This document shows positions 6,593 through 52,440 of a DNA stretch of 64,000 nucleotides, one piece after another. The stretch is from contig CM032117.1 of NCBI GenBank assembly GCA_018894105.1, positions 43,882,501 through 43,946,500 on the forward strand, given 5' to 3'. The DNA comes from Jacaranda mimosifolia. Lineage: Eukaryota > Streptophyta > Magnoliopsida > Lamiales > Bignoniaceae. A model generated the notes under the pieces. It did not search any database. It was not told the origin of the DNA and was given only the letters and a program-made list of their open reading frames with translations. A program made the translations under genes and the position numbers. Every line of letters begins with the position of its first letter. Position 1 is the first letter of the stretch.

Positions 6593-7432
6593 CAGAGACG
6601 GGTCTTGGGGAGGGGGGCAAGGAGGGGCAGTGCCCTCCCCCCCCCCCCCCACCCCACCATTTTGATAAATTTTATTTGATTCATATGTACATTTGTTTCC
6701 CCACATGCCACGGCTCCTTATATATATATATATATATTAAATTTTGTAATAAATTTCAGTTTATATATATTTAATTACTTAGTTATAATTTTTATTAATT
6801 CTTTACCTATTTTAATTTTGAAATGTTTAAAGTAAATTTTTAGGCCCATATTTTCAATTAAATAATTCACAATTAGGTTAAGTCCATAAGACACTTTCAT
6901 TTTATTTGTTTAAGAATGTATTTATAGGGATCTAACAAAAAAACTCTTTACAACTTTATAGGAACTCACAGAAGAATTAAAATCTCTCCCTTTTGACTCA
7001 ATGTGATTGAAGCAAAGAGACAAAATAATCATGGCAAGTTTAATACCATCAATTCGTTCTTCAAGAGAAAAACTAATGATAATACAAGAGTTGGTGAATC
7101 ATATTCTACTCTGTCATCAATAATTCAATTCAGTAATGAAGAACAACGTCAATCTAAAATTCCAAGAGTGGAAAAAGATTATGTTTCTTTATTAGAAAAA
7201 GATATGAGAAAGCGCTTATCAATTTGGCAATATAATACTGAACAAAGGGACAAAATTCAAAGATTTTATATACCAAGTGGATCATATTAGTCTGTTCTCA
7301 CTGATATGAAAGAACGTCGCTTTCAATTTCAACGATATGTATTTCGAATTCATAGATTATAAAATTTATATTTAAACTTTTATGTTTTATAATTTTCGCT
7401 CCCCCAGAGTCTTAGTTCTGAATTCGTCCATG
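6593..7432 (+). mobile_element. Deleted hAT element (ZMYM1/TTF-type family)
   Basis: The left end CAGAGACGG at 6593 pairs with a right end whose complement begins CATGGACG. The 8-bp flanks are TTCAAAAT (6585-6592) and ATCAAAAT (7433-7440), one mismatch apart. G/C-rich runs follow both ends, as in plant hATs that encode TTF-type zinc-finger transposases. Only the N-terminal piece of that transposase is left inside (7003-7290), so this is an internally deleted copy. A C13-14 run and TA microsatellites have grown inside. Confidence 0.75.
7003..7290 (+). pseudogene. N-terminal fragment of hAT TTF-type transposase
   Basis: This 95-codon frame matches the start of plant zinc finger MYM-type 1-like (hAT) transposases. 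It has a basic start, the block NSFFKRK near residues 17-23, then EEQRQSKIPRVE (about 46-57) and a segment ending KIQRFYIPSGSY that corresponds to the conserved WEYPVNQQDEIRRAYI-type region just before the TTF zinc finger. It stops where the zinc finger should begin; the DUF4371 and hAT dimerisation parts are absent. The protein cannot be an active transposase. Confidence 0.7.
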
Positions 7433-7440
7433 ATCAAAAT

Positions 7441-9572
7441 TCTAAGTTGCTGAGAAAATAATTAATTAATATATAGAAATAATCCAATAGTACATTACCT
7501 TAATTAAAAATAAAGCGATTATATATATAAATAAAAATAATTAAATATTAAAAATTAATTGCTTGGTTTGGCATAACTTAATTATCAACTATTTTATTGA
7601 GATAAATCTCATATTTTTTGGATAAAAATGTAAAAATAAATTAAAAATTAAAAACATCTAACTCTTTAGGTGAAAATTATAACTTAATATTCTTAAAACT
7701 AACACTAACTATTGGATAGTTTCGATGTATTCATTTCGTGTATTCACTTTTCATCATGTCAAGGCATGAAAAATTATTTTATATTGTTAAATTATCAGAG
7801 TAAGCCTAAGTTATTAATTAAAATATAGAATATATATCAATTATGCGAAAAGTAAATTTTTTGTAGCAAAGCATTTCAAGTTTCTAACTACATACACAAA
7901 ATCATTTTACATATAAAATTATATAATTTTATTTATTTCTTAGTAGAGAAATAAAGTTATTTTTATAAAAAAAGATTATAAATAAAAATAAAAATATTCG
8001 AAATAAACATGTCCGCGGCACATGATGATATATAAATATAAAAGGTTCCCTTTTTTTTATGCACATAGTTACAAATACACAAATCACATAACGCCAATAA
8101 AATTTAATGAATTTCTTATGGAACATACATTATATATTTTCATCGATTCGATAGGAACAAAGTAATTTCAATTACTCAAAAAATATTATAATATTTTGAA
8201 TATTTCATAAGTCATATTATTCGAGTTACATTATTCAACTATGAAGTATATACAAATATTTTTTTATTCTTAATTTAGAGAAATTGAAAAAGTTACAAGC
8301 AAAATAATAATAAAATAAATTTTCAATAACCAAACATAATGCTCAACATGGACAATTAAAAATGTATAAAAATAACATTAAAAAATGAATATATAACGTG
8401 TTATTAATTAAATAACCCAAAGTACTATATGCTATTATTTTAAATAATATAAAAATTACTAACCTAAGTTGACCATAAGAAAACTTAAATTTCAAATAAA
8501 TATTGAGAAAATAAGTAGTAACACTACTGAAGTTTTTAAATGAATTAAAAGAATACCTATTTAAATCATGATGAGAATAAAATCAAAAAGATAAAGATGT
8601 TTCATGAAAAAGTTCTTAAGAATTTATATGCAAAATAATTTATCTAATATATTATGATAAATAGGATATAATATTTCCCAATTAAATAACAAAAAAGAAT
8701 AAAAATAAAGAACAATGGCAGCTCTAGTAATTAATGTGAAAATAAAAGGTGGAAAAATGATAGTATAATGACAAAATAAATATATGCATAAAATAAGTGC
8801 AACAAGGATTGTTAATTAATATTGTAATAAGTTAAATTTATCGGATCAAATATTGTTATTAGAATACTTAATTTGGTGCTTATTACTTATCAGACACATT
8901 TAAATTTTAAATGTATATGATTAGATAAAAATACCTAGTGTCTAATTGGCAGGTTGCTGAACGAACGAATCTAATGGCATTACCCTCACACTTGTATCTA
9001 TGAGGTTCGAGATTTGAGCTCTAATGAATTCTTGACGTACATATGCATATAAATTTTAAAAATATATATATATATAAGTGTAAAGTTCTGGATTTAAATT
9101 CTAATGAATTTTTTGTATGTGTATGTACGTAAATGGAAAAAAATAACTGATGAGATAAAAATATATGAATAGAAATATTTTGAATCTGTCAAATGAGATT
9201 AAAATTTATAATGCAACTTTAGATATACACAATATGATGATTTAGTTATAACAATAAGTTGGCTATGTTTAAAAAATAAATAAATTAACAATAAATGAAA
9301 ACTTTTAGTTTAATTAATTAAAAAATCAAAATTTAAAAATTTAGTATTTAGCCAAAATTGTATAATTACAATTAAACCCCATTGTATTATATATAATAAT
9401 GTAGATTACGTTTACAATTACTCATGAAATTTGAATAAGTAAATGTAGATTATAGGATTATATGGTTGGCTTGATTTTACTTCTCCTGATTACATCGGTT
9501 TTAACGTTTGATTTATTAGCTAGTTTGTAATTTGACCTTTTTACCAATCATGTAAAAATGCCAGCTTATATC
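7441..9572. other. AT-rich intergenic region
   Basis: No gene, RNA or clear transposon end is seen. It has short TA runs (for example around 9060-9075). The frames are short and look random. Confidence 0.45.
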
Positions 9573-10530
9573 CACTACAAGAAAATTGGCATTTAGTGGC
9601 ACTAATTTGGTGACATTTTATAATATAATGACACAATAAAGTATTATGGTAATAGGTGTAAAGGCATTTGATTATTAATGACAGACATAAATATATTCAA
9701 AGACATTTAATTAATGTCACTAATTTTTTTAAAAAAAAATGCCACTAATATGTAGTTATAGTGTTATTTAAAGAAAAATATCATAAGGTATTCCGTGACA
9801 TTAACTTAGTAGCATCTATAGTGTAATGACGCACAAAAGTAATATGGGTGATAGTAAAAAGAAATGTCACTATAATAAAATATTTAATGGCATTTGATTA
9901 TGAGATGACATATAAAATAGTGACATTTGATTAAAAATGCAGCATTTAACTAGTGTCGCTAATTTTTTTTTTTTAAAATGCCACTCATATTTATTTATGG
10001 TGTCACTTAGAAAACTGCCACAAAATATTTAGTGACACTAACTTTGTGACATTCAATAGTTTAATGACAAACAAGAGTAATAAGGTGATAATTGTTGAAA
10101 AATGTCATTGTAATACAATATATTAGTGGTGTTTGATTAATAAGTGATAAAAAAATAGTGACATTTGATTAAAAATACCAACATAAATATATTTGCAAGA
10201 TATTTAAGTAATGCCATTAATTTTTCTTAAAAAATGTCACTTATATTTATTTATGGTGCCATTTGTAAAAAGTATCGTAAATTATTTAGTGGGACTGATT
10301 TGATGTCGTTTTACAGCATAGTGGCACATTATAATATAGTGATAGTAATAAAAATGCCACTAAAATATAATATTTAGTAGTAATTGATTAATAAATATTA
10401 TAAAAACATACTTTTATTAAAATTATATACTAAAAGCATTTAACTAGCATTGCTACTTTTTTCTTAAAAAAATAAAATAAAATCAATCATACTTTAGTTA
10501 TGGTGTGACATGAAATAAATATTACAAAAA
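9573..10530 (+). mobile_element. 5' end of a CACTA (En/Spm) element with subterminal repeats
   Basis: CACTACAAGAAAA at 9573-9585 is the characteristic terminal inverted repeat of plant CACTA elements. It is followed by four imperfect tandem units of about 200-255 bp, starting near 9590, 9787, 10030 and 10286, each built from GTGACATT, AATGCCACT and AATGACAC words in both orientations. Such repeats are where TNPA-like proteins bind in En/Spm elements (family knowledge). I could not find the opposite end (TTCTTGTAGTG) downstream, nor a TNPD transposase, so the element is truncated or its other end is diverged. Confidence 0.7.
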
Positions 10531-11760: not shown

Positions 11761-12279
11761 TTAATGTAACATCAACTCCTATAAGAGGAGTCACCAGAGT
11801 AACTCAAAAGATAAAGGTGGTGCTTCGCACTGTGGTGCCAAGACCCTAAAGAACACGAAAAATCTTGCCACTCGGGTTGACCAAATGAAGGAGCTGCATG
11901 GCAGCAAGAAAAAAGGTAAAGGCACACTCTGAAACTTAGATGTCATGGTGATGTTTACTTTTAGGATATTCCTTCCAAAAGACGTGACTGTACTGCTGGC
12001 AACATCCCTTTTCTACTTTGTGAGTACTTTCAATAGAATGTTGTTGAATAAGTTAGGATTTTTTTTTCCTTTGTTTTAAAATAGTACCAACCTATATGGG
12101 GAAAGTGCCTCAATACTGCAATTAATTACATGAATGAATGTTATTCTTCTCATATTGTTGTCTCTTACTATTAATTAATTTACTTGAGGTGTTTGTGTTG
12201 CTCTTTGGAGCACTTTAGCATCTCTTAGGCATAATCCCATTATACGGTCTCTTCGAGGGTGCGTGGTTGTCAAACACTT

Positions 12280-12520
12280 AAAAAATATGTATAAATTATG
12301 TTCTAACACTTGAAAAGGTGTATAAAATATGCTCTAACACTTGAAAAGGTGTATAAACTACACTCTAACACTTGAAGAGGTGTATAAACCATAAACTATA
12401 CTCTAATACTTGAAGAAGTGTATAAACTATGCGCTAACACTTAAAAATATGTATAAACTAAGCTCTAACACTTGAAAAAGTGTATAAACCAAACTCTAAC
12501 AATGAAAAAGTTACGAACTA
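12280..12520. repeat. Short tandem repeat, about 30-bp unit
   Basis: About seven copies of a unit that reads CTCTAACACTTGAAAAGGTG followed by TATAAAC, spaced 30-38 bp apart and with a few substitutions. It lies in the low-copy or retroelement-derived region and codes for nothing. Confidence 0.85.
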
Positions 12521-15714: not shown

Positions 15715-15723
15715 TTTAATGAA
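15715..15723. repeat. Left 9-bp target-site duplication of the 12.2-kb MULE
   Basis: TTTAATGAA, identical to 27955-27963. Confidence 0.9.
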
Positions 15724-15860
15724 GAGTTAATTAGAAAAAAATCCCTAAACCTACTTTCCATTTCGTATTCAGTCCCCATTTGAATATTTACACACTAAAC
15801 TCCCCACTTTTTCACAAAAATTAGGAATCACTTCCCATATCTTTTAGAAAGACCTATACA
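15724..15860 (+). repeat. Left terminal inverted repeat of MULE
   Basis: Aligns with the complement of about 27818-27954 with around six in ten bases equal by eye. The best-kept blocks are GAG at the tip, CAGTCCCC and ATCACTTCC. Confidence 0.8.
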
Positions 15861-15863
15861 CCC

Positions 15864-16304
15864 TTGCAGCTAGAAAAAACAACAAAAATACCTAGGAAAT
15901 GCGTTCTCTTGAAGAAGAAGAACGCTTTCCTTTTTTTATTTTTGCCTGAAATCGACTTGTCTAAGTGCCAAAAGAAAAGGGCGCAAAATCGTTCCTCTGC
16001 CATCTGCATGAGAAGAAGAAGAAGAAAAAGTGTGGAAAAAAAAAGGCACCAAGATTTCTACCATTTTTCTGCGATAATGGAAGGAAAAACAGCTGCAACA
16101 AGAAGTAAAGTACAAAAAGAAGTGATGAAAAGAAACAAAGCTATGTTTTCTGCATTTGAAATTTCAAATGTCCGTGATTTTTCAGTGTTACACTCATTTC
16201 TTGTCTATTTTCTCATGTTTAGGGTTTTTATTCCTTTTTTAGTCGTTAAACACTTGAACCCCTTTGATATATATGATTTCTGTTGTGAGATGGGAAGTTT
16301 CTAA
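15864..16304 (+). other. Open frame near MULE left end, possible leader exon
   Basis: A 146-codon frame, very rich in Lys/Arg and then hydrophobic. It matches no domain I know. A stretch beginning at the ATG at 16077 could be a first exon of the Ulp1 transcript, because a good acceptor (TTGCAG, about 17420) follows array 1. It may equally be a chance frame in the subterminal region. Confidence 0.2.
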
Positions 16305-16414
16305 TTTGTACTTGAAGGGCATGAAAGTTGCACTTCACCTTTTACGAGTTTATACTTCTTTTTAACTGAAATTATATGGTGAAATTATACTATAAAACTA
16401 TCTGAATGTGGTAG

Positions 16415-17395
16415 TGCATTATCTGTAGTACAGAACATCCAAGCATGCAGTACACATAGGAAAAGTGTAGTATATAATCTGAGTAACCGCAGTACATTTT
16501 AGAAGCAAATATCATATAAAACATTCAAACTTGCAGTACACGTTGAGCAAAAGGGTAGTATAGTATATAATATGTATAGTTGCAGTACATTTTAGGAGCA
16601 TCTGCAGTACACATTAGGCAAAATTGCAGTATATAATATGTGTAGCTGCACCACATTTTAGAAGTAAATGTAGTATAAAGCATTCAAACTGGCAGTACAC
16701 TTTAGGCATAAGTGTAGTATATAATTTGTGTTGCTGTAGTACATTTTAGAAGCAAATGCAGTATAAAACATTCAAACTGGCAGTACACTTTAGGCATAAG
16801 AGTAGTAATCTGCAGAGCTGCAGTGCATTTGAGAAGCAAATGTAGTATAAAACATTCAAACTGGCAATACACTTTCGGCATAAGTGTAGTATATAATCAG
16901 TGTTGCTGTAGTATATTTTAGAAACAAATAAATATAGTATAAAGCATTCAAGCTTGCAGTACACATTAGGCAAAAGATAATATACAATCTGTATAGTTGC
17001 AGTACATTTTAGGAGCATCTGGAGTACACTTTAGGCAAAAGTGTAGTATAAATCTCTATAGGTCAGTACATTTTAGAAGCATCTTAGTACATAAACATTC
17101 AAGCCTGCATTATACATTAACTGAAAATGTAGTATATAATCTTTGCATCTGCAGTACATTTTAGAAGCAACTAAAATATAAAACCTTTAAGCCTGTGCAG
17201 TGTACATTAAATGGAACTCTAGTATATAACCTGTGTGTCTGCAGTACATTTCAGAAGCAACTGTAGTATAAAAATTCAAGCTGAAAGTGTAGTATATATT
17301 ATGTGTTTCTGAAGTACATTTTAGAAGCATGTTTAATAGAAAACATTTAAGTTTTTAGTACACTCTATCTAAAAGGGTTAGTTTATTATATGTTT
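16415..17395. repeat. MULE array 1: about 11 units of 80-90 bp
   Basis: Each unit contains GCAGTACATTTTAGAAGCA, then GTAGTATAAAACATTCAA, then CAGTACAC and a GTAGTATATAAT word. Units start near 16491, 16581, 16650, 16737, 16820, 16910, 17000, 17067, 17150 and 17242. The array lies between the left terminal repeat and the Ulp1 gene, probably in a 5' intron. Confidence 0.9.
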
Positions 17396-17421
17396 ATATA
17401 CTATTTTTTTTCTCATTGCAG

Positions 17422-20400
17422 CAAAGCCAAGACATTGTGAGGTCTGCTCTCGTTGCTCCCCCCAATATTTTTAGAGTAAATTGGAGCTTGTGAAGTCCAA
17501 GATGGGGTCCAAATTTTTTGATGCATTGAAGAAGACCCCTTTCTATATATACATGGATATGCCTAAGTTAAGTTCAAGCTTCATTCGGCTTGAAGCTATA
17601 CTTAGGAGGTTTGACCTAAAAAAGCTCTCATTTCATTTTGCGGAGGGAGTTGAGGTTCCTTTTTCTACAGCTGAATTTTCAATGGTTTTAAGGTTGCACA
17701 TGTAGGGCAATCTGTTGATATGACATTGAAGATGAAGTCTTCAACCTTTGACTGCCTTTTTTCTGGAAAGCTGCAGAATATAACTAGATCTGAAATAGCA
17801 AAAAAACTTGAGGAGTATGTATATAAGGATAGTGTGGAGGACTTGAATAATTTTTGTAGTTTGTACATAGTTTTTGTTTTTAATTGTATTCTGTTTCCAA
17901 GATCTAATTATTGGACTCCACGATTTCTCCTACCATACTTGGACAATTTGTCTAGAGTTGGTCTGTATGCATGGGGCATAATTGCATACAATTTTCTTGT
18001 CCAAGATATGAAGAACCATTTAGGAGTAGATGGAGAAAGAAGAAAGAAGAACATTGATGGGTGTACAGTCGGCTTGATGGTAAGTGTTTGCTTCATTTTT
18101 CTAATAACATTGATTATATTTATATTCAAGTGAGTATAATTTTTCAATTTATGAATGACAGGCATGGGTTTATGAATGCATCCTGTCACTGGCTTCACTA
18201 GTAAGTTTGTTTGAGTTTCCACGCTTTTACCGGTGGAAGGATAACAAACTCCCACAAAATGTGGAGTAGACAGAGAATAAATTGAAGCAAGTTAAAGCAG
18301 ATATGGTAATAGTTGTAATAATTCATTATTAGTTTTTTGTATAATAATTTGAATTTGATAATTTTTTCCACTATAATAGGTTGTAGCCCTCAACCATGCT
18401 CCAGAGGAGTTAGAATTGGCAGTTTTGATCAAGAAATCAGAGGCTGCCAGTACTACCATCAGTGAAGTCCATATCTGTGATCATACAATATATGAAACAA
18501 TTATTGCAGTAAAAGGTGAAAAAATTAAATCATTGAAAGAAAAAATTTACTTCATTCGAATACATGGCAATGAAGGAGCAGGGTGAGGAGGAGCATCTAG
18601 CTGAGGAAGAGACTGATAGGGTGGAGCTTGAGCAGGAAACTGGTGAGTATGTGCATGAGGGGCGACTTGATTTGGTACATGATGCACAGAAAGAAGGGGA
18701 TGATTATGAAGACATACTGGATGAAGAAAGTCGAACCAAACTCCGTCATGATCCTTTAGATTCCCCCATACCTTTGAAGACAGAACATTATATACCAATT
18801 CAAGCAGCTGAGTTCGAGGAATCTGAGATTGAAGTGGCAAATGTCATGTCCTCGATTGTGACAAATGTGCGCAATCTAGAAGATAGGAAGCCAAAACAGA
18901 AATCTCCAGATTTTGTTAGCCCCCCGAGCACTACACCAGCCAAAAGAGCAAGACAAGTGACAAAGACCTATCGTGCTCATCCTCATGCATGAATAAACAA
19001 AGAACAAGAAGAGAAGAAGGTGTTGTACACTACCTAATGTTTTATTTTTTTTGCTATTTGCATTTCATTTGTAAACTGTATGTTGTAATAAATGTTATGA
19101 TATCTTATACTTGATTGGTTGATAATTGCACTTAATGGATGATATCCTATACTTCATTTTGGTGATACTTGTACTTATGTGCTAATCTTTTGTACTCCAA
19201 GTTGGTGATATTTATACTTAATATGCTAATCTTTTGCACTTAATGTTGGCGATATTTGTACTTCATGTGTTGATCTTTATACTTAAATAGTTGATACTTT
19301 ATACCTAATGTGCTTAAGTTCTATACTCCATGTTGGTGGTATCTGTACTTCATGTGCTTATCTTTTCTACTTCAATAGTTGACACTTTACACCTAATGTG
19401 CTTGAGTTCTGTACTCCATGTTGGTGGTATCTGTACTTCATGTGCTTATCTTTTCTACTTCAATAGTTGACACTTTACACCTAATGTGCTTGAGTTCTGT
19501 ACTCCATGTTGGTGGTATCTGTACTTCATGTGCTTATCTTTTCTACTTCAATAGTTGACACTTTACACCTAATGTGCTTGAGTTTTGCACCCCATGTTGG
19601 TGGTATATGTACTTCATGTACTTATCTTTTCTACTTCAATAGTTGACACTTTACACCTAATGTGCTTGAGTTCTGTACCCCATGTTGGTGGTATCTGTAC
19701 TTCATGTGCTTATCTTTTCTACTTCAATAGTTGACACTTTATACCTAATGTGCTTGAGTTTTGTACCCCAGGTGGCAGATGAACCAACCAACCCAAAGAC
19801 TGAATGGTTGATCCCTATAAAGGAAGGACTGATTATAGAAGTATTGCTCTTATTCCAGTAGAAGAGCGAGAAGTCATCGACAACTTTGTTAGAAGAGATA
19901 ATTTGAGGTAACAAAATTTGCTTATTTTTTTTCTGTTGGATAAATTGGTATCTGAACTAACAATTAATAATTGTGTAGGGTGACTGTCTGGGAGGGAGCA
20001 AGACGATTTCTGGATGGAAGAAACTTTTGTGAGCTCTTATTTGGAGGAGAACTGACCGATGACATAGTGGACTGCTATATGTCGATATTATGTAGCCCAT
20101 CTTTCGGCAAGAAGTGTCAGCACAAGGTGTGGTTCACGTCCTCAATAGCGCAGGTATGTCGCGGTTTCCTAACTTAATTTAGTTCCTGTTTCCAATGAGT
20201 CTAACCATTTGTTTTATACTTCATAGGCTGATATATTAGACCGACTCGAGGGACGCAACATCAAGGATATTACGGATGAAGAATTTGTGGAGTTGAAGCT
20301 TCAACTTAACACCTTCACCTGTAAAGATTTGGAAGAGCTCACAGTTGATGTTTTAAACCAGTGTCGTTATATAATCCTACCGATTTGCCGGCGCCAGCAC

Positions 20401-20796
20401 TGGTTCTTGGTTGTCCTCGACACCTCGACTCGTTCTTTCTTATACATGAATTCAATAATGGCCGCCAGATACAAATCGATAGCTATTGCCATTGTAAGTT
20501 TGCTTCCTTTCCCTATGATTTCTTCATAAAGTAGAGAGTTAACAACTGATCAATATTTTTGTAGGCTTCATTCTATTCTCGGTACATGAAGCTTTCATTA
20601 GGGAGTCGTGTGGGCGAACAAATAAAACAGGCGACAAGCGGGAACAGTGGATTGTGGTGTCTATGTATGCCTTTGGGCAGAATGTTTTGCTAGAGACACC
20701 CCCGAGTTCTGGAGGGATGCTAGAATAATTGAAATTGATAAATATCGTGCGAATATGGCATATACAATATTAAGTCATGAAAATGCCAGGATTTGA
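17422..20796 (+). pseudogene. MULE-borne Ulp1-type (C48) protease gene, frameshifted
   Basis: The first coding part (17481-18085) resembles the plant-specific domain fused to Ulp1 in transposons (DUF1985-like: PFSTAEF, GLYAWGI, NIDGCTVGLM, then AWVYECILSLASL after an intron ending at about 18160). An acidic linker follows (18564-18992, TPAKRARQV near its end). The protease part runs from about 19772: DYRSIALIP, WFTSS, the catalytic His in RRQHWFLVVLD (20398-20400) and the catalytic Cys in VDCGVYVCLWAECFA (20653-20655), ending with TGA at 20794-20796. Introns of GT-AG type separate the parts. Disabling features are a frame change near 17695, a TAG after NVE (about 18268), a shift in the 19.8-kb exon and an apparent 2-base loss just before the Cys. 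The residue where the catalytic Asp is expected is Asn (FLYMNS, 20449-20451). Confidence 0.8.
19120..19775. repeat. MULE array 2: exact 88-bp tandem repeat
   Basis: The word GACACTTTACACCTAATGTG recurs at 19381, 19469, 19557, 19645 and, with one change, 19733, exactly 88 bp apart. Looser units extend upstream to about 19120. Each unit contains TGTACTCCATG and TGTACTTCATG, the complement of the AGTACA word of the other arrays. It ends directly at a splice acceptor (CCCCAG, about 19772), so it fills a Ulp1-gene intron. Confidence 0.92.
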
Positions 20797-20894
20797 ATCA
20801 CTTGTATGTGAATACATGTGGAAATTGAAGCATACTTTGTTTATAATATTATTTTGTATGTAAGTGTAATTTTTCATTAATTATTTATAACTTA

Positions 20895-21870
20895 AATTCA
20901 ATTGAAACAGGGCAGGGAATTTGAATACAATTCAGGGAAAATGAAGTACAAACTCGGAATAAACAAAGTATAAAATGTGTTTCGTTGTAGTACACTTCAA
21001 TTCAATTGAAACTGGGCGGCGGATTTGAGTGCATTTTGAGGGCAATGAAGTACAGACCCAGAACAAAGAAAGTATAAAATGTGTTTCGGTGAAGAACACT
21101 TAAATTCAATTAAAACAGGGCAGGGAATATGAGTACAATTAAAGGGAAACAAAGTACAAACTCAGACTAAACAGAGTATAGAATGTCCTTCATTGAAGTA
21201 CACTTCAATTCAATTTAAATTGGGCGGCGGATTCGAGTGCATTTTGAGGGTAATGAAGTATAGACCCAGAACAAAAAAAGTATAAAATGTGTTTCGGTGA
21301 AGAACACTTAAATTCAATTGAAACAGGGCAGGGAATATGAGTACAATTCAAGGGAAACAAAGTACAAACTTAGACTAAACAGAGTATAGAATGTCCTTTG
21401 TTGAAGTACACTTCAATTCAATTGAAACTAGGTGGCGGATTTGAGTGCATTTTGAGGGCAATGAAGTACAGACCCAGAACAAAGAAAGTATAAAATGTAT
21501 TTCGGTGAAGAACACTTAAATTCAATTGAAACAGGGCAGGGAATATGAGTATAATTCAAGGGAAACAAAGTACAAACTCAGACTAAACAGAGTATAGAAT
21601 GTCCTTTGTTGAAGTACACTTCAATTCAATTGAAACTGGGTGGCGGATTCGAGTGTATTTTGAGGGCAATGAAGTACAGACCCAGAACAAAGAAAGTATA
21701 AAATGTGTTTCGCTGAAGAACACTTAAATTCAATTGAAAGAGGGCAGGGAATTTGAGTACAATTTAGGGAAACGGAGTACAAACTTATACTCAGTACAAT
21801 TCTGGAGAAATGAAGTACAAACTTGAAAAAACTAAGTATAAAGTTTGTTTTGTTGAAGTACACTTTTTGC
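20895..21870. repeat. MULE array 3: about 208-bp tandem repeat, four to five copies
   Basis: CACTTCAATTCAATT recurs at 20994, 21202, 21409 and 21618, about 208 bp apart. Every unit has two related halves, each with a GAAGTACA word, a GGGC(A/G)G word and an AGTATA-AATG word, so the unit is itself an old dimer. It is located just after the Ulp1 stop codon. Confidence 0.9.
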
Positions 21871-22189
21871 AATTGAATAATTATTCTCCAATAATTATAA
21901 TGATGGGCAAATACAATAATTTGAGATTATCGAATCTGGTGAAGTACGAATTTGTACGCGTGATATGGTGGATATCATCACCAAATTCTCATTTGTTTAC
22001 ATCTTTGAAAGCATAAGTATTCTTTCACTACTGCGATTGATAACATTCATCCGTTGAACACCAATGATTAACAATTTAAAAATTTTACACTTTATTTTAT
22101 TCATATGATAAATATTGGACACATACCAAAACTTAAAAAGCAAATCTTTGAGCAAATTTCAATTCAAAAATATTAGTAAATATATTAAG

Positions 22190-22647
22190 ATATTAAGTAC
22201 AAAGTTGCCCAAGTAAGGTGGAAATGTGAAGAAATCAAGTACAATTGTCCCAAATTGAGGTACAAAATTCCACTATGTCTCGAACAACATGCAAGAATGC
22301 TAGTTTCACACTAAATCACCTGCCTCATTGCCCAAGTGAGGTGCAAATGTGAAGAAATCAAGTACAATTGTCCCAGATTGAGGTACAAAATCCCACTATA
22401 TCTCAGACAACATGCAAGAATGCTAGTTTCACGCTAAATCACCTGCCTCATTGCCCAAGTGAGGTGCAAATGTGAAGAAATCAAGTACAATTGTCCCAGA
22501 TTAAGGTACAAAATTCCACTATGTCTCGGACAACATGCAAGAATGCTAGTTTCATGCTAAATCACCTGCCTCATTGCCCAAGTGAGGTGCAAATGTGAAG
22601 GAATCAAGTATAATTGTCCCAGATTGAGGTACAAAATTCTACTAGTT
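22190..22647. repeat. MULE array 4: exact 123-bp tandem repeat, four copies
   Basis: CCCAAGT starts at 22208, 22331, 22454 and 22577, exactly 123 bp apart. Each unit holds CAAGTACAATTGTCCCAGAT and GAGGTACAAAATTCCACTA. It lies between the Ulp1 and MURA 3' ends. Confidence 0.92.
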
Positions 22648-25600
22648 TACTAATTCTTTGCAAGTTCAACAATTATGCCCTGTTCTACCACACCTTTTAC
22701 ACTTAATTACACGTTTCTCAATATGTGATGGAATCCTCTATGTCCTTCTACGCCCAAGCTGAGATCGACAATCAGGTGCGTGAATGACGTGATCATCATC
22801 TAGAGGGAATAAATGCATATCAAACATAGGAATATGGTTTATCACTGCTTGGTATGCTTGTTGATACATCTCAACTAGGTAGTATTGATTGATGAAGTCA
22901 TACGGTGAAAGTAACTTTGACTCGATACAAGCACAAACATGTCTGCATGGTATTTTATCAATCTGCCATGCTCTGCACGAACAAACCCTGCTATGTAGAT
23001 TTACAACATACGATTTATCTTGCTCAATCACCTCAAAGCTCCAACCGCTAGACATGACAACTTTTAAGCTACGAGAACGCATATGATTAATTGCCAACTT
23101 CTTCTCCTGCTTGGGACATAATTGACCAACCATCTTATGAGATTCTTCTCGTCTATCATGCATTATAACCATTATTTGCATGCGTATGTGATCAACCATG
23201 GCTGCAACTAGCATAAGTTGGGCTGGTTTAACCCAATTATTCCAACTTTCTGCTTGATTATTGTTTATTACCCCCCATCGATCTCCACTGAATAAGAAAT
23301 TTGCCCAACACGGTGGGTCAGACTGCATAATAAAGTCTTTGGCAAGCGGCATTGACTCCAAGATGTTGTCTATATGTCAGGTATACTCTTGCCTTGTAGG
23401 CACATATGCAGCTTTCATAAAAACAGAACACCAATGTTTCTTGCTATGTAGAGGGTATTTCCTTAATACCTGAATTTAGAATAATAGAACAGTAATGTGC
23501 TAAATGTTATGAATTAGAGTTTATTTCACATAATTATCTCACAAACAAAGATAAAGTATATTTACCTATTTCTTAAGTTATCCACTTAATGTCTCAAGCA
23601 ATATGCGTGGTGGCTATCGGGAAATATCATAGGGAGGGCCTTAAGAAGACCTGGATGTCAATCAGAGATGAAAGTAAACCTTGATAAGCCAGACAGATAT
23701 TCAGAATCTAAGACACTGCTTAGCTTAAAGCAGAACCACTCCCAATTAATGTAATTTTCAGAGTCAACAACTGCATATGCTAACGTGAATAAGTCATCAT
23801 TAGCATCCTTACTAATAGCGCCGAGTAAGACTCATTTGTATTTATTTTTAATATGGGTGCCGTTCAAAAATATCAATGGCTTGCATCCCCTGAGGAAACC
23901 AAGAAGGCAGGCACTGAAACATATAAATAGCTGACGAAATTTTTGACTGATTGGGTCAATCTCACAGTCTGCAATACTTCTAGGGTTTGTCCTATTCACA
24001 GCATCACAGTACCACCTCAACTTATCATAAGATCCCTTCTCAGCTCCATGGATGTCATGCATAGCTAATTCCTTACCCATCCATGCTTTATGGTACCTAA
24101 GTTCCACATCGTATTCTTTGTGGATATCTTTCAATATGGTAGAGGGCCGATAACATGACTCTGATCTCAATTTATCCTTCACTACGTTAGCAACACAAGT
24201 GGAATCGGCTTTAGGATATCCCCTTGTCCGAAGATTAGCCTCACCACATGTGTGCTCTAGATTGTATTTTCGAATGCCAAATAATTTATCAGGCTCATGC
24301 CTTGATGCATAGATTCTCCATTTGCAATTTTCATCACTGGAAACGGCTATGATTTTTTTGCTGTCATTTTTCTTGTATTTAAATGACCGCAAAGTAGACA
24401 TTGCATAATTCTTAAGCATAATTCTGAACTCCTAAGCATCCTTGAATGTTTGACCCTCTCCATATATACAATTCCTCCATGCATCAGTTGAGTTGCTAAT
24501 TAAAGCCAATTTATTATGCGATGCATTGGTCGAACTAATTTCCTCCTCGACTGCATCCCTTGAGGTTGACAAATGAAGTACAATTTTAGGTAAAATAAAG
24601 TACAATATGTAGAATAATTCAGCCTTGTGGTATAATTTCAAATATACGAAGTACAATTTCAAAATAATAGAAGTATAAAACGCAAGTAATTGCAGTACAA
24701 TTTTTGATAATCCATTAGTAGAACACTGTAAAGTTAAATAAGGATTCAGAAAATTGAAGTACAAGTTAAGATAAAATGAAGTACAATTTGAGAACACCTG
24801 AAGTACATAAATTCAATGAAAAGAGTACAGGTTTATGTAAAATTATGTATAAAATGAAGTATAATTTTAAGAAACAGAAGTAAAAGAAGTGAAGTACAAT
24901 TTTAGAACACCTGAAGTATAGAACCTTAGCTATTGCAGTATAATTTTTAGATAATCCATTAGTAGGGGCTTCAAAATTAAATATTAGATTCAGATAATTG
25001 AAGTAGAAGTTCAGATAAAATGAAATACAATTTCGGACACTTGAAGTATAGAACTTCAACGACTGGAGTACAAGTTTATGTAAACTTATGTATAAAATAA
25101 AGTATAATTTTAAAAAATAGAAGTACAATTTTAGACAAAGTAAAGTACAATTCCAGAACACCTGAAGTATAGAACTTCAATGAAAAAATACAAATTTAGG
25201 TGAAAGTATGTAAAAATTGAAGTATAAGTTCAGAAAACCAAAGTACAATTTCAGATAAAGTGAAGTACAATTTCAGAACTCCTGAAATATAAAACTTTAG
25301 CTATTGCAGTATAATTTTTGGATAATCCATTAGTAGGGGCTTCAAAATTAAATAATAGATTCAAATAATTGAAATACAAGTTCAGATAAAATGAAATACA
25401 ATTTCGGATACTTGAAGTATAGAACTTCAACGACTGGAGTACAAGTTTATGTAAAATTATTTATAAAATGAAGTATAATTTCAGAAAATAGAAGTACAAT
25501 TTTAACAAAGTGAAGTACAATTCCAGAACACTTGAAGTATAGAACTTCAATGAAAAAATACATATTTAGGTGAAAGTATGTAAAAATTGAAGTATAAGTT

Positions 25601-27500
25601 TAGAAAACCTAAGTACAATTTCAGATAAAGTGAAGTACAATTTCAAAACTCCTGAAGTATAAAACCTTAGCTATTGCAGCATAATTTTTAGATAATCCCT
25701 TAGTAGGTGCTTCAAAATTAAATAATAGATTCAGATAATTGAAGTACAAGTTTAAATAAAATGATGTACAATTTCGGACACTTGAAGTATAGAACTTCAA
25801 CGACTGGAGTACAAGTTAATGTAAAATTATGTATAAAATGAAGTATAATTTCAGAAAATAGAAGTACAATTTTAACAAAGTGAAATACAATTACAGAACA
25901 CCTGAAGTATAGAACTTCAATGAAAAAATACAGATTTAGGTCAAAGTATGTAAAAACTGAAGTATAAGTTTAGAAAACCAAAGTACAATTTCAGATAAAG
26001 TGAAGTACAATTTCAGAACTCCTGAAGTATAAAACCTTAGCTGTTGCAGTATAATTTTTGGATAATCCATTAGTAGGCACTTCAAAATTAAATAATAGAT
26101 TCAGATAATTGAAGTACAACTTCAGATAAAATGAAGTACAATTTGAGAATACCTGAAGTATAGAACTTCAATGACAAGAGTACATATTTAAGTAAAATGA
26201 TGTATAAAATGAAGTTTAATTTTAAAAAACAGATGTAGAATTTTTGATAAAGTGAAGAACACTTTCAGAACACTTGAAGTATAAAACCTTAGCAATTGCA
26301 TTACAAATTAGATAATTTATTAGTAGAAAACTTCAAAGTCAAATAATAGGTTCAGATAATGTTCAATACAAGTTTAGATAAAATGAAGTACAATTTAGGA
26401 ACACTTGAAGTATAGAACTTCAATGAATATAGTATAGTTTTCTGTAAAATGAAGTACAAAAGAAAGTATAATTTCAGAAAATAAAAGTACAATTTTAGAT
26501 AAAATAAAGTATAATTTCAAACTCTTGAAGTATAAAGCCCTAGAAACTGCACTATATTCTGGATAATCGATAAATATAACACTTAAAATATAGACCTTCA
26601 ATGAATAGAGTAAAGATTTTGTAAAATAAAGTATAATCTCAAAATATTGAAGTACAATTTTAGATAAAAAGAAGTACAATTTTTGAACACTTCAGGTAGA
26701 AACGCTAGCAATAGCAGTATAACTTTGGATAATCAATTAGTAGAACACTTTGAAGTGTAAAACTTAAATAATAGAGTACAATTTTGGTGAAATGAAGTAC
26801 AATTTTAGATAACTGGAATATAAATTTGTATAAAATGAAGTACAATTTTCGAACAATTGAAGTATAAAACCCAGCAACTTCAGTACAATTTTCGTAAAAT
26901 GAAGTATAATTTCAGAAAACCAAAAGTATAATTTTATATAGATTACGTACAATTTGGAACACTTCAAGTATAAACCGCTACAAGTTGCAGCACAATTTTA
27001 GATAATTCATTAGTAGAACACTTGAAGTATAAAACTTACACAATAGAGTATAATTTTTGTGAGATGAAGTACAATGTTAATCGCAATGAAGTATAATGTA
27101 GAACGCTCCAAGTACAGAAAGATTTTCAAATAAACATAGTGTAATTTCAGAACTCTTCAAGCACAAAACTTTACAAACTGGAGTACAGTTTAGATTCTGT
27201 AGAAGTATTACCTTAAAACATCACTGCTCTTTTTTTCTCTGCTGCTTGATTCATCATTTCGATTTACCAGGATGTCAACAATGTTCATCTTCAATGTCAA
27301 ATGTAGTAAGACCATATTCATGACATCGTTGTCATCAGTTAAACTCATGTACAATCTTTGATGTGGAGGTATATATTGCAAATTGAAGTGCTCAGCGTTG
27401 ATTTCACTCTATTTTCTTGTGAGATTAATGTACATATCCATTAAGGTCATACTATTCTTAATTGATATTATATGGAGCTGGTCTTTATAGCGGCAACCCC
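22648..27500 (-). pseudogene. MURA-type MULE transposase gene, multiple stops
   Basis: Read on the minus strand. An N-terminal PB1-like exon (about 27500-27230, with YMSLTDDNDVMNMV) is followed by an intron filled with array 5, then a large exon from about 24570. That exon has the MuDR DNA-binding region (DAWRNCIYGEGQTFKDA, stop, EFRIMLKNYAM; CKWRIYASR), then the DDE-type transposase core: FLNGTHIK at 23862, ISD-stop-HPG at 23658, and QAESWNNW at about 23250. A short intron (about 23472-23571) precedes the last part. A SWIM zinc finger (CSCRAWQIDKIPCRHVCA) and a CCHC knuckle (CKRCGRTGHNC) close the protein. Stops occur at 27419, 24432, 23832, 23658, 23586, 23377, 22738 and 22666. The first catalytic Asp of DGTH is Asn. 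It cannot make transposase. Confidence 0.88.
24575..27210. repeat. MULE array 5: 370-bp higher-order repeat of AGTACAATTT monomers
   Basis: Built from roughly 25-35-bp monomers reading GAAGTACAATTTTAGATAAA with variants (AGTATAATTT, GAACTTCAATGA). TAGTAGG recurs at 24960, 25331, 25701 and 26071, giving a higher-order unit of 370-371 bp present about four times, with looser monomers to 27210. It occupies the first intron of the MURA gene, which it enlarges to about 2.6 kb. Confidence 0.92.
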
Positions 27501-27954
27501 CCTGACACTTGATTTAACACACTTGCTTCACTAATGGTTGATATTATCAGAAAAATATAAGAAACTCAGAAGCAACTAAGAAGAAATTGAGAAGAAGATG
27601 AAAACCAAAAATGATGAAAATAAAAAGAGAAGAAGACAATGCAGCTGTCGGGTTGGTGGTTTTTGGCTCTGATGTTATTCTCGTTCTCGCCGTGGAGCTT
27701 GTTGCATTTTTCCTGTTCTTTCTGTTTCTGGTAATGAGCGTATGATAGGGTTTACTGTTTGCTTGTTCGGATGAAGAAGAAGTGACAAAAAATGAATGAA
27801 AAATATTATACTTAAGGGCATTTTTGTTAAATCTTGTTAGTAGGAAGTGATCTTTAAACTTTTAACAAAACTATGAAATTTATTCTAACAAAAATCAAGT
27901 GGGGACTGATCACAAACTTTGAAAGTGTGTTTGGTACTTTTAAATAAGTGTCTC

Positions 27955-27963
27955 TTTAATGAA
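27955..27963. repeat. Right 9-bp target-site duplication of the MULE
   Basis: TTTAATGAA, identical to 15715-15723. Confidence 0.9.
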
Positions 27964-47513: not shown

Positions 47514-49400
47514 GGAAAAAGATTTTGAGCAAACTTTGAATAGTGAGGAAAATGATAGCACTAGTAGTGAGTAGGTTGGGGGACAAAGGTATGAGAGGGA
47601 TTCTATCAATGAGGGATTTGATGAGGCTACCGAAGAGTCTATTGAAGCTAAGAGGCCTGATGTTGATGCTGTTGAGATTTCTTTTTGCATTATATTCTAT
47701 TTTATAATGTTAGATGTTTAGTTGTGCATAGCTTCTAAAATGTTTCTTGTTTTCTTTTTCCTATATTTTTTATGTTTTAGGTTGTTGGTGATGGTTTTGG
47801 AAGACTTGATAATATCAATGAAGGTGTAAATGAATTTGAAAGGGAGTGCTGAAGTTGGAAAACAGGCTGCTCATGTTGCTGAGATTGCCATGATAAGTTT
47901 TTGCATTTGTTTCAGCATTCTGTTATATTTTGGACATCTTTTGGAGATGTCGAGACGTATGTAATGCTTCCGAAACATGAGGGAGGCCGTATACAATGTT
48001 GTGTAATGCTTTTATAACATTAAGAGATAGTGGTAATGTTAAAATGTTTATTTCAGTATAGCTTTTGAAATGTTTCTTTTTTTCCTATACTTTGCTATAT
48101 TTTAGGTTGTTGATGAGAGTTTAGAAGGGTTTGTTAATGTTCATCAGTGTGGAAATAAAGCTAAGAGGGCATTTGTTGAAGTTCGGAAGGAGATTGGTGA
48201 TGTTGTTGCTGCTACTAAGACTGTTGTTGAGTTTATGAATGAGATTACTGATGAGGGTTTAAATTTAGGAGGGGCTGCTAATGTTAAAAAAGAGGCTAGT
48301 GAGGTTGCTGAGACTGCAAGCATAAGTTTTCTACATTTCTTTTTGTATTATGTTGTATTTTATATTATGTTTAGGGAATGTTGGGGGGTATGTGTACTGC
48401 TCTTGAAACATGAGCATGGTTTGTTTATTGTTTTCTAAACATAAGGGGTTTATGTAATGTTGTGTAATGCTTTTATAACATTAGGGAGTAATTACAATGT
48501 TAAATATTAATGTCTATATAGCTTCTGAGATACTTCTATTCTTTTTCCTGTATTTTGTTATATTTTATGTTATTGATAAGGGTTTAGAAAAGTCTGCTAA
48601 TATTCATGAAGGTACAAATGAAGCTGAGATGGAGTTTGTTGAAGCTAGAAGGGAGGCTGGTGGTGTTGATGAGGATGTCATGGTAAGTTTTCTACATGTC
48701 TTTTTGCATTATGTTGTATTTCGGATATGTGTAAGTAATGTTATGTGGTCTGTGCAATACTTTAGGAATATGAGGAGGATTGTTGTAATGTTAAATGTTT
48801 ATTTCTACATAGCTTCTAAATTGTTTATTGCTTTTTCCTATATGTTTTATGTTGCTGAAGAGTTTATGAATAAGATTGCTGGTAAGGGTTTAGGTTTAGG
48901 AAGGGTTGCAAATATAGGGATGAAGAATGTTGATGATGTTGAGACTACTACAATAAGTTTTCTGCATTTGTTTCTGCATTATTTTTTTTTTTGAATATTT
49001 TATAAAATGTTTGTGGTCATGTGTAATGTTGTTGAAAAATGAAGGAGGTGTACATATAATGTTCCTAAAACCCAAGGGGGTAGCTATATTACTTTTGAAG
49101 TATGAGGGATAGTTGTAATATTAGATGTTTAATTTCTGCATAACTTTTGAATTGTTTCTTACTTTTTTCTTATATATTTTAAGTTGTTGATGAGTTTATG
49201 ATTGAGGCTATTGATATTTTTGGTGAGGATTTAGAAAGTGATGATAGTGATAAGGGTGATGATGTGGGGAGTAATGAATCTGAAGATGGTAGTAGTGAAT
49301 TTGAGTCAAGTGAATCTGATGCTAATGGGGGCCCTTTACTTCAAACTGATGATCATTCAGACTACCAGTCTAATGATCATTGTGAGCTTGAAAACTCATA
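47514..49400 (+). repeat. Five-fold tandem exon-intron unit in MULE spacer region
   Basis: A unit made of an intron end (CTTTTTCCTATATTTT...TTTTAG), an exon start GTTGTTGATGAG, an acidic exon (ANVxEGxNEAE, EARREAGGVDED) and a donor region (ATAAGTTTTCTACAT, then GCATTATGTTGTATTT) recurs with starts near 47752, 48075, 48536, 48826 and 49159. Copies are 290-460 bp apart. The final copy leads into a long acidic segment (DLESDDSDKGDDVGSNESED). This resembles the acidic spacer between the PB1-like and DNA-binding parts of MURA proteins, multiplied together with its introns. Confidence 0.75.
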
Positions 49401-49479
49401 AGATGATAAGCTTCCCGATGACCCAATAGGACTTACTACCCTAGACAATAGACATAGATGAATTCATCGTTCCTGATGA

Positions 49480-52440
49480 TCTAGCTACATAAGTTAAACT
49501 TGAGAAAGGAATGTTGTTTTTGGATGTATATGCCTTTAGAGAGTTATTAAAACAGCATGTCACAAGAGTTAGTTTTGACATTTTAAGGATCAAAAAGGAA
49601 AAGTAAAGAGTAACTGCTAGTGTGCTACTAGAAGATGCCCTTGGAGGATTAATGCCTCAACAACGTCTGATGGAGTTACATTCTATCAAAACTTCTGTAT
49701 CATAACACACATGTAAGAGTTGATCATATTAAAGAGGCCAATGTTGTATGGATGGTTAGAAATCTAAAGAGGTGTTGAGGGCTAATCACAACATGAGGCT
49801 TAAAGGACTGAAGATAGGGTTGAAGAAATTTGGAATTGCTCCTCCTTATATAATATAAAGCCAAAAAAAAAAAACAGTTGATGCTCTTGAGGACAACCAT
49901 AGTGAGCCCTTCTCCTAGTGTGTGCCTATAGTGAGATGGTATTAAGAAGGAATCATGATTTTATTTTTAGGATGGAGTTCTAGAGGAATATTCAAGTGAA
50001 GATGTTGATGGCACATGAAATATTTCAATATGATTTACACCTAATTTTAAGAGGGTATTCATGGGCTTGAACGCCTTAAGGGACAAATTTTTGAATGATT
50101 TTGGGGCTTTTTTAGGTTTTGATGGATGCCACCTAAAAGGAATCGATAGAGGAGCACCATTGTCTGTTGTGGGACATGATGGAAATAACTATATATTCCT
50201 AATTGCATTTGTTATGGTTGAAAGCGAATGCAAAGAAGGTCGGGGGTTTTTCTTTAAATGTCTAGAGAAGATGCTTGCAAGATTCAACAATGACAAGCCC
50301 AAGATTTTATGTCAGACAGGCAGAAGGTATGGTGTCTGTTTTATGCTTAAATCCTGATTTATGTTTGTAATATAATACAAAGTTCAAGGTTTAGTTAAAA
50401 ACCTTATACAAAATCTCAGGGGCATAAATACAAGATTTGAAATAGTTCAAGGTTGACCTTGTTATAGTTTCAAATTTATGAAGTATTTTATGTTTTATAT
50501 TTGTTATGTGCTTAAATAACAGGGTGAATTACGTTTACTATCCCTGAGGTTTAGCGAAAATATATATGAAAAGATCCTTACTTTTTTAGAAATTACAATA
50601 ATCTCACTGAATTATGTAGTCGTTCAACAATTTACTCCAGTTGTTAGGTATCTTTAGGGGTTTCCCATTTTCTGTTAAAAATAGTACGTGAAATTTCAAA
50701 ATTGCCCTTCCGATTAATGATCCATTAAATAAAAGTACAAAATACCCTTAAGCCTCAATAAAAAAATATATATTCAAAAACATTTAAATATTTAACTATA
50801 TATACATACATATATATAGATTATATAATACTATATAATATATGTAATATATAATATACTTATATAAATATAATATATAAACACACACACCCCTATCCCC
50901 AACCCTACTGGCTGGATATGGCCCCACCAAATCTGGCTATGGTGGCTACCAACAGCGGCCGCCATAAGGTTTCTATTGCAATGGCCGCTTGGTTAGGGGG
51001 CTATGGCAGCCCATGGCTGCCTATGCCATGGGCAGTAGCTGCTAGCCGTGGCATGGCCATGGCCAGTGAAAGAAAGGGATGGGGGGAGGGGGGATGCCAT
51101 GGTTGGCCGAAGAAGAGTGGGTGGGGAGGGAAAAGGATTTTAAAAAGAAAATTACTTATTTTTTTAATTTATAAATAATCTTGTTAATATATATATTTAA
51201 TTTTTTTTTACTTATTTATTCTTAATTAATAGTCTTTTAATTTTTAATTTATTGCATTTAATAAATTAATAGATTTAACTAAATTTAATTAATTATTTTA
51301 GATATATTTATTATTTGAACAAATAATTTAATTAAATTTAATAAATTATTGTAGATATGTATATTATTTAATATAATTTAAAATTTCAAGATGCAATAGT
51401 ACAAGAGGGGCATTGAGGACTTTAGCCATCTCATTAATTTTCACCATTTTTTTTAATTATTTTGCTATTAGGGTATTCTGGATTTTGCTCAAATTTGATC
51501 TACATTATAGCTAGTTTATCGTTTTAGGGGGGTTATTGTAATCTTTGAAAAAGTGAGGTTCTTTTCTTAATTTCACCAAACCTTGGAGGTAGTTGGCATA
51601 AGTCATCTAAATAATATTTAACCTTCCTATGATACTTTCGTTACTACGTTCTGATTGAAGCTATTAGTGAATTTGCTTTGCATGCAATAAATAGGAAATG
51701 TGGCATGCATATTTATGCCAATTTAAACAATAGTTTCTAGGTGTGCTAGAGAAATTTTTTTTGGATGTCTCATAGATGTTATGATTTCCAAGGTTTCAGT
51801 TGTTCCATGTATACAATTAAATAGCGTAGGCATGATGTTGATAATTGGCTGATGAATGTACCTATTATTCCATTGTTGGTACGGAATGTTTCTGATGTTA
51901 GATTGAAAATAATCATGTGAGCAACAACATATCTGAATTAATCACTAATAGGAGAGCAAAGGTAGAGTAACTATCAGTAAGTATATTGTGATTAAGCTTA
52001 ATGGTCTGAAACTGGGAAGCAATAGGCTTTCGTTTGATAGATAGTAGTGTATATGATTTCAAATTAAAGACAAAGGGATGCACTACATTTTGAACCTTAT
52101 ATCGAGGAGTCGTGATTGTAGAGAGTAGGATATCTCTGCATTTCTTGTAAGGATAGTGTATTAAGAGTCAATAGAACTATATGCAGATATTTGCTTTTTC
52201 AAATTTGTATACTTGAATGCGTATTCTGAGATCATCAATCCTATTCTAGACCTCACCTTTTGGCCTTCAGAGTTCAGACTTGACTGCACAACCTACAAAA
52301 GTACTTCCTCTAAAGATAAAAGAGGTTGCTAGATAGACCCGAAAAGAACAGAAGAAGAGGGGCAAATCAAATGTGATAAAAAAAGTAAGAGATCCAGCTC
52401 TTTCAGATGCATCAACTATTAGTGTTTTAGGCAAAACAAA
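49480..52440 (+). pseudogene. Decayed MURA transposase, interrupted by insertion
   Basis: Recognisable MURA pieces occur in order. The DNA-binding region has LEKGMLFLDVYAFRELLKQH, then a KKEK-stop-RVTASV break (about 49499-49630). The transposase core has DFGAFLGFDGCHLKGIDRG, which keeps the DGxHLK aspartate, then VVGHDGNNYIFLIAFVMVESECKEG (50061-50300). After the insertion at 50522-51607 come RKCGMHIYANL (about 51690-51725) and a Lys-rich tail with SNVIKKVRDPALSDA (about 52365-52415). Many stops and frame changes separate the pieces. It is older and more degraded than the MURA at 22.6-27.5 kb. Confidence 0.7.
50522..51607. mobile_element. Small MULE/MITE-like element inserted in MURA, with GC-rich cargo
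   Basis: Left end GGTGAATTACGTTTACTATC and right end (complement AGATGACTTATGCCAACTACC) form long imperfect inverted repeats: GAGGTTTAGCGAAA matches AAGGTTTGGTGAAA, and AGAAATTACAATAA matches AAGATTACAATAA. The flanks are AAATAACA on the left and AAATAATA on the right, an imperfect duplication. It contains no transposase. At 50890-51140 a block of much higher GC, rich in GGCCATGG words, sits in otherwise AT-rich DNA and may be captured host sequence or a simple-sequence expansion. Confidence 0.65.

Follow-up and report, generated by a model that had tools for sequence, protein, structure and literature searches.

Five tandem arrays with different repeat units, which together make up nearly half of a Mutator-like element (MULE) in the genome of Jacaranda mimosifolia, follow one rule: the word AGTA(C/T)A recurs every 21-22 bp and runs almost entirely in one orientation within each array. 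The element is 12,231 bp long and lies at 15724..27954 of the 64,000-nucleotide stretch that was analysed (contig CM032117.1, positions 43,882,501 to 43,946,500; hereafter the window). It carries, besides a transposase gene, a second gene with DUF1985/plant mobile domain (PMD)-like and Ulp1-like parts, and by analogy with described elements we consider it probable, at roughly 70%, that it is a MULE of VANDAL/KI-MULE type in which a VANC-type DUF1985/PMD-Ulp1 protein binds AGTA(C/T)A and acts against silencing.

All five arrays that a preliminary description of the window had picked out are recovered by Tandem Repeats Finder, and its estimate that they form about half of the element is close to the measured 47% (5740 of 12,231 bp). 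Array A (16415..17370, + strand) has periods of 88/90 bp (also 44, 66, 159 and 172), the 88-bp unit consisting of four 22-bp cells, and array B (19095..19770) has a period of 88 bp with its words on the - strand. Arrays C (20880..21880, +; 104/208 bp) and D (22205..22650, +; 123 bp, its AGTACA and GGTACA words standing 21 bp from each other) lie between the two genes, and array E (24570..27210, +; 370 bp, made up of 21-22 bp cells) lies in a predicted transposase intron. The shared AGTACA/AGTATA core is likewise borne out, as 159 of the element's 171 AGTA[CT]A words are inside the arrays and nearly all words of an array are on one strand, the counts of AGTA[CT] on the + and - strands being 34/0 in A, 0/18 in B, 29/1 in C, 4/0 in D and 79/1 in E. 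AGTA[CT] reaches 9 per kb in D and 27-36 in each of the other four arrays, against 3.8-3.9 in the flanks. The enrichment outlives a correction for copy number in which each array was cut down to one unit, chosen by hand: AGTAC is then found 12 times where 1.46 would be expected (the maximum in 2000 shuffles being 6), and GTACA and AGTAC are the two top-scoring 5-mers, no other among the 20 listed being present in all five units. Taken singly, only C and E are significantly enriched for AGTAC (p is 0.16 for A, 0.08 for B and 0.09 for D).

The five periods had been described as different; the periods themselves stand, but they are not independent, since one spacing of 21-22 bp is common to all. 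A word is followed by another (one mismatch being tolerated) 20-23 bp further on in 132 of 155 cases, namely 28/33 in A, 11/15 in B, 23/28 in C, 4/5 in D and 66/74 in E, whereas other four-base lag windows give 0-18%. When near-identical spacers are collapsed, with the word taken as RGTAYA, 61 spacings of 30 bp or less remain, 36 of which are 22 bp and 15 of which are 21 bp. The 88, 104/208, 123 and 370 bp periods are therefore higher-order units laid over a single spacing rule. Distances across gaps of more than 30 bp are spread modulo 10.5, so that helical phase finds no support there and any claim of phasing has to be restricted to runs of neighbouring words.

In four of the five arrays the word is kept over the spacers between its copies, the identity of word and spacer to the next 22-mer being 0.77 and 0.32 in A, 0.70 and 0.39 in B, 0.69 and 0.23 in C and 0.64 and 0.38 in E, with background values of 0.28, 0.27, 0.28 and 0.32 respectively. 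The word is also retained between copies of the element. Among the window copy and two further full-length copies (c1 and c2) its five fixed columns are 95.8% identical, as against 83.9% for other array positions (n = 14,998), and 29 control 6-mers average 88.6% with a maximum of 94.6%; at the Y column there are 54 C/T changes and 17 others. Against a more diverged copy, L031, the word stands at 93.3% and other positions at 75.7%. The proposal that a short functional word was amplified fits these data on its enrichment and retention. Independence of the amplifications is not evident, because one spacing of 21-22 bp is common to all arrays and the C and E spacers are alike (p 0.0002; A-C and A-E give p 0.02-0.03 and the other seven pairs >0.05, all uncorrected for ten tests).

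The same spacing is found in the host assembly at large (707 Mb in 65 contigs, including the window), where GAAGTACAATT has 19,137 matches compared with 532 for the reversed pattern and AGTACA-16 bases-AGTACA, with its words 22 bp apart, has 31,144 compared with 261. Fifteen stretches (L009-L023, L009 and L010 having 1 kb in common) were picked for holding the word, and so therefore were c1 and c2; L031 alone was picked by protein match. All fifteen show the 21-22 bp lag, whereas five arbitrary stretches hold 62 words with none at that lag. In a lag histogram of 18 stretches and 1924 words, pairs peak at 22 bp (759) and 21 bp (234), and no other lag from 10 to 35 has more than 41.

It had been envisaged that other copies might lack the arrays, as would be the case if these were later, unrelated insertions. 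Both c1 and c2 have all five, in the places and orientations seen in the window and with differing copy numbers (units in the window, c1 and c2: B 7.1, 9.0 and 6.4; C 4.3, 2.8 and 2.8; D 3.6, 6.6 and 4.6; E 4.2, 4.6 and 2.6), and in L031 arrays A-D occupy the positions seen in the window copy, E falling beyond the stretch. Gene parts of L031 are 87-93% identical to those of the window copy, and the best matches of its arrays reach 75-79% for A, C and D and 83% for B. Its array D (7187-8895) has grown to 13.6 units of 124 bp, in which only one of 24 RGTAYA words is still AGTA[CT]A, nearly all having shifted to GGTACA; this concerted change from AGTACA to GGTACA recalls the C- and T-type words described for VANDAL21.

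Arrays are also kept by copies that have lost most of the coding DNA. Six of 14 stretches compared are derivatives, 6.4-6.7 kb long in the four with ends located, in which arrays A, C, D and E survive; these six gave no match to array B or to the DUF1985-like, linker and Ulp1 exons, and match only ~0.1 kb of the main transposase exons. Four shorter derivatives (3.3-5.9 kb in the three with ends located) hold parts of A, C, D and E with 0.12-0.15 kb of the DUF1985-like exons; as for the remaining stretches, L010 is rearranged and L016, L021 and L023, though near-complete, run off the edge of the stretch. Seven derivatives have 71 to 140 words each, 77-84% of which have a successor at 20-23 bp, and the arrays of three full copies hold 144 to 159. 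A search of the genome with P0122, a relative of the second gene's product, gave at least 133 matches (126 of 2265 candidates scored); a stop interrupts 12 of the long matches listed, and around 40 share a score of 223.3 bits, an equality which suggests that the family has undergone a recent burst.

The element itself is bounded, as MULEs are, by a 9-bp target-site duplication, TTTAATGAA, at 15715..15723 and 27955..27963, identical at 9/9 bases. Its ends are degenerate inverted repeats, whose alignment scores 62 over ~110 bp with many mismatches, the highest score in 200 shuffles being 38; this agrees with VANDAL elements, in which such repeats are degenerate or missing. In a check of 11 copies for such duplications nine were reported on, seven having 9/9 bases (with ends shifted by at most one base) and L011 8/9, whilst the 5/9 of c1 amounts to none; L012 and L013 yielded no end pair.

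Gene content was read from alignments to related proteins and from domain searches. On the + strand, DUF1985/PMD-like exons at 17430..18266 (17430-17696; 17690-18088, in another frame; 18162-18266; tblastn of P0122, P0123 and P0121) are followed by a predicted linker exon with a PPSTTP stretch at 18816..18962 (tblastn of P0121) and by Ulp1-side exons at 19971..20796, with Peptidase_C48 (PF02902) from 20227 on at 23.7 and 25.6 bits against a cut-off of 20.7, or 48.6 bits when the pieces are bridged with X. A single protein of Primulina, P0121, spans the gene from the DUF1985-like part through the linker to the first Ulp1-side exon. Relatives of this VANC-like gene are few, one search giving 1 protein and another 3 (including the query) with ~8000 candidates scored in each, and a fold prediction for P0123 with three relatives reached a mean pLDDT (predicted local distance difference test) of 34.6, too low for fold comparison.

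The transposase runs on the - strand, opposite to the C48 domain, with predicted DNA-binding, catalytic and SWIM exons at 22648..24506 (24506-23574 and 23472-22648; tblastn of P0002) and a PB1-like first exon at 27253..27501 (tblastn of P0011 residues 14-96; P0011 itself matches PF00564 with 27.0 bits). The window copy matches PF03108 (DBD_Tnp_Mut) with 37.5 bits (cut-off 25) and PF04434 (SWIM) with 30.3 (cut-off 19.6), and PF10551 is present in the relatives P0002 and P0011. Among the best 120 of 198 matches the nearest named relatives are from Henckelia, Primulina and Erythranthe, all of them Lamiales. Ranked among them in that set are transposases of Zingiber (up to 58% over 86% of the query, 22738-24431) and Curcuma (up to 68% over 47%), with Phoenix (date palm) at 39-41%; horizontal transfer is a possible reading of this likeness. 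A second, short MULE transposase fragment lies at 50037-50252 (+), with 29-34% identity to relatives of the element's transposase.

These alignments also place the arrays. Array B is taken as intronic because P0121 aligns on either side of it (18816-18962 and 19977-20093), and E because P0011 does so (27501-27253 and 24812-23574); the latter match enters array E by 0.2 kb, and those of P0002 and P0036 start at 24506 and 24509. Arrays C and D are intergenic between the predicted genes, and A, downstream of which the alignment of P0122 starts at 17430, is upstream of the DUF1985-like exons and probably in an intron or leader intron. The location in introns and intergenic DNA that had been described is thus upheld, but the arrays do not extend to the termini, ending ~0.7 kb short of both element ends.

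Elsewhere in the window, a tandem repeat of 31 bp (which also has forms of 38, 69 and 100 bp) at 12273-12508 lies outside the element and has consensus units without AGTACA, a 238-bp repeat is present in two copies in the AT-rich DNA to the left of the element (9704-10176), and the bin 48001-50000 has a GC skew of 0.392, the highest among the window's 2-kb bins, the next being 0.205.

That no MULE family with such a feature had been described, as the preliminary account supposed, is incorrect, as VANDAL21 and VANDAL6 of Arabidopsis have non-coding repeats of short words that are bound by VANC proteins, which thereby undo silencing (PMC5735166). In VANDAL21 (Hiun) of Arabidopsis thaliana the DUF1985 protein VANC21 binds YAGTATTAY, a word that lies densely and in one orientation within introns, intergenic DNA and terminal non-coding regions and that often forms tandem repeats, these repeats changing quickly between copies; targets of VANC6 in VANDAL6 carry AGTTGTCC / AGTTGTAC in non-coding tandem repeats (PMC5735166). 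VANC genes of KIU elements carry Ulp1 (PMC13317346), and KI-MULE has an Ulp1 domain in reverse orientation (PMC2528002). The Jacaranda element resembles VANDAL21 in being Mutator-like and in its dense one-orientation word, its tandem non-coding repeats, their gain and loss and its second gene, that of VANDAL21 being a DUF1985 gene; it resembles KI-MULE and KIU in an Ulp1-like domain in a VANC-type gene (a putative one in Jacaranda), reverse orientation, ends of the non-TIR (terminal inverted repeat) kind and high copy number. It is this shared anatomy, with Ulp1 as in KIU and KI-MULE, which would place it in a known VANDAL-type kind. VANDAL6 has a different word, although the VANC21, VANC6 and Jacaranda words all contain AGT. 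Unlike VANDAL21, the word here is AGTAYA rather than YAGTATTAY, no VANB gene was recognised among the open reading frames examined, the gene adds an Ulp1 domain to a sub-cut-off DUF1985 match, and binding and demethylation, demonstrated for VANC21, are something we infer for Jacaranda. KI-MULE and KIU are said to recognise non-coding motifs of their own kind, in passages that give no word, spacing or array structure. What marks the Jacaranda element out is a new word, AGTAYA, together with strict spacing and a large copy number.

A number of results weigh against our reading. The genes of the window copy are broken, with frame breaks in the + strand gene near 17690 and 20650 and in-frame stops in the transposase. 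DUF1985 (PF09331) does not reach its cut-off of 35.1 in any of the four proteins scanned (window 19.6 bits, or 21.5 bridged; P0121 18.0; P0122 21.2; P0123 27.0), and PF10536, the PMD, outscores it in the three relatives with 20.7, 25.2 and 29.0 bits (window 13.4, or 17.4 bridged; cut-off 34.9), so that by its scores the first part of the gene falls between the two, below cut-off for both. Known VANC words are next to absent from the element, YAGTATTAY having 0 matches and AGTTGTMC 1. Array D holds few exact words and fails the word-against-spacer test at lag 22 (0.17 vs 0.38, n=5; its own lag is 21), and in B the spacer too is above background (0.39 vs 0.27) and constraint between copies is weak (0.833 vs 0.851 from window to c2). 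With the Y column counted, conservation of the word falls to 94.0%, which 1 of 29 control 6-mers equals, and versus L031 as many as 9 of 26 controls are as conserved as the word, which leaves that test equivocal.

The equivocal controls of L031 would also suit a functionless satellite, in which an ancestral 22-bp repeat spread within the element and, after divergence, was amplified anew as higher-order units. The spacing common to all arrays, the likeness of C and E spacers (and weakly of A with both) and the spacer identity of B at 22 bp are what such a history would leave behind. We nevertheless regard it as quite unlikely, given that adjacent spacers in A, C and E are scarcely more alike than background, if at all, while the word is retained, that the word is constrained among the window copy, c1 and c2, and that arrays with a nearly perfect strand bias sit in non-coding parts. 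The two histories may be combined, the spacing having come by common descent and selection on the word having acted later.

If the word is a binding site, the transposase and a host factor had both been put forward as its reader. Internal transposase sites could serve transposition or, as with TnpA of Spm, activation and demethylation; TnpA activates Spm alongside demethylation, and maize MURA lowers methylation of the terminal repeats of non-autonomous copies (PMC10398659). Derivatives that have lost both genes keep arrays, as would be expected with any trans-acting binder. The words, however, avoid the element ends, where a transposase must act: AGTA[CT] stands at 5.8 per kb in 15724-16414 and 4.0 per kb in 27211-27954, near the level of the flanks, and arrays C and D are >5 kb from either end. 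The transposase is for this reason an unlikely reader, and less likely than the DUF1985-like/Ulp1 protein. A transcription factor or chromatin protein of the host, driving or insulating the element's genes, would fit the intronic and intergenic position of the arrays, and host and element proteins are both compatible with the present sequence data; the number of words in derivatives and full copies and the match with VANDAL anatomy favour a binder encoded by the element and make a host factor very improbable.

On the VANC-type reading, the second gene would encode a protein that reads AGTA(C/T)A, and words in one orientation every 21-22 bp, about two helical turns, would bring adjacent binding sites to the same side of the helix, allowing numerous molecules of the protein to coat introns and intergenic stretches within its own family. 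Eudicot VANC proteins with DUF1985, DUF287 and Ulp1 have reportedly been described (Sasaki et al. 2022, EMBO J), their specificity being said to come from the sequence of the word, its density and its helical periodicity. Such coating, presumably cooperative, would strip silencing and methylation and reactivate both the element and its non-autonomous derivatives, whilst arrays would expand and contract, probably by unequal exchange, with word and spacing retained. VANC and RNA-directed methylation are described as opposing each other in the same non-coding regions (PMC10398659).

A wider version can be offered tentatively: that of a large VANC-like lineage beyond Brassicaceae, with a DUF1985/PMD-Ulp1 protein whose binding needs two-turn-phased arrays, in which selection keeps spacing and word so that unlike units serve one reader, and which was the driver of a recent burst across the genome, in company with derivatives that retain arrays but no genes. 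If the VANC-type reading is true, silencing is counteracted in a sequence-specific way, and at very high copy number, in a plant outside the Arabidopsis group; the target word is then a new one and the rule for its spacing, 21-22 bp, very clear. One genome with many similar copies, array-bearing derivatives and shifting words would then offer a way to test how VANC-type proteins and their targets co-evolve.

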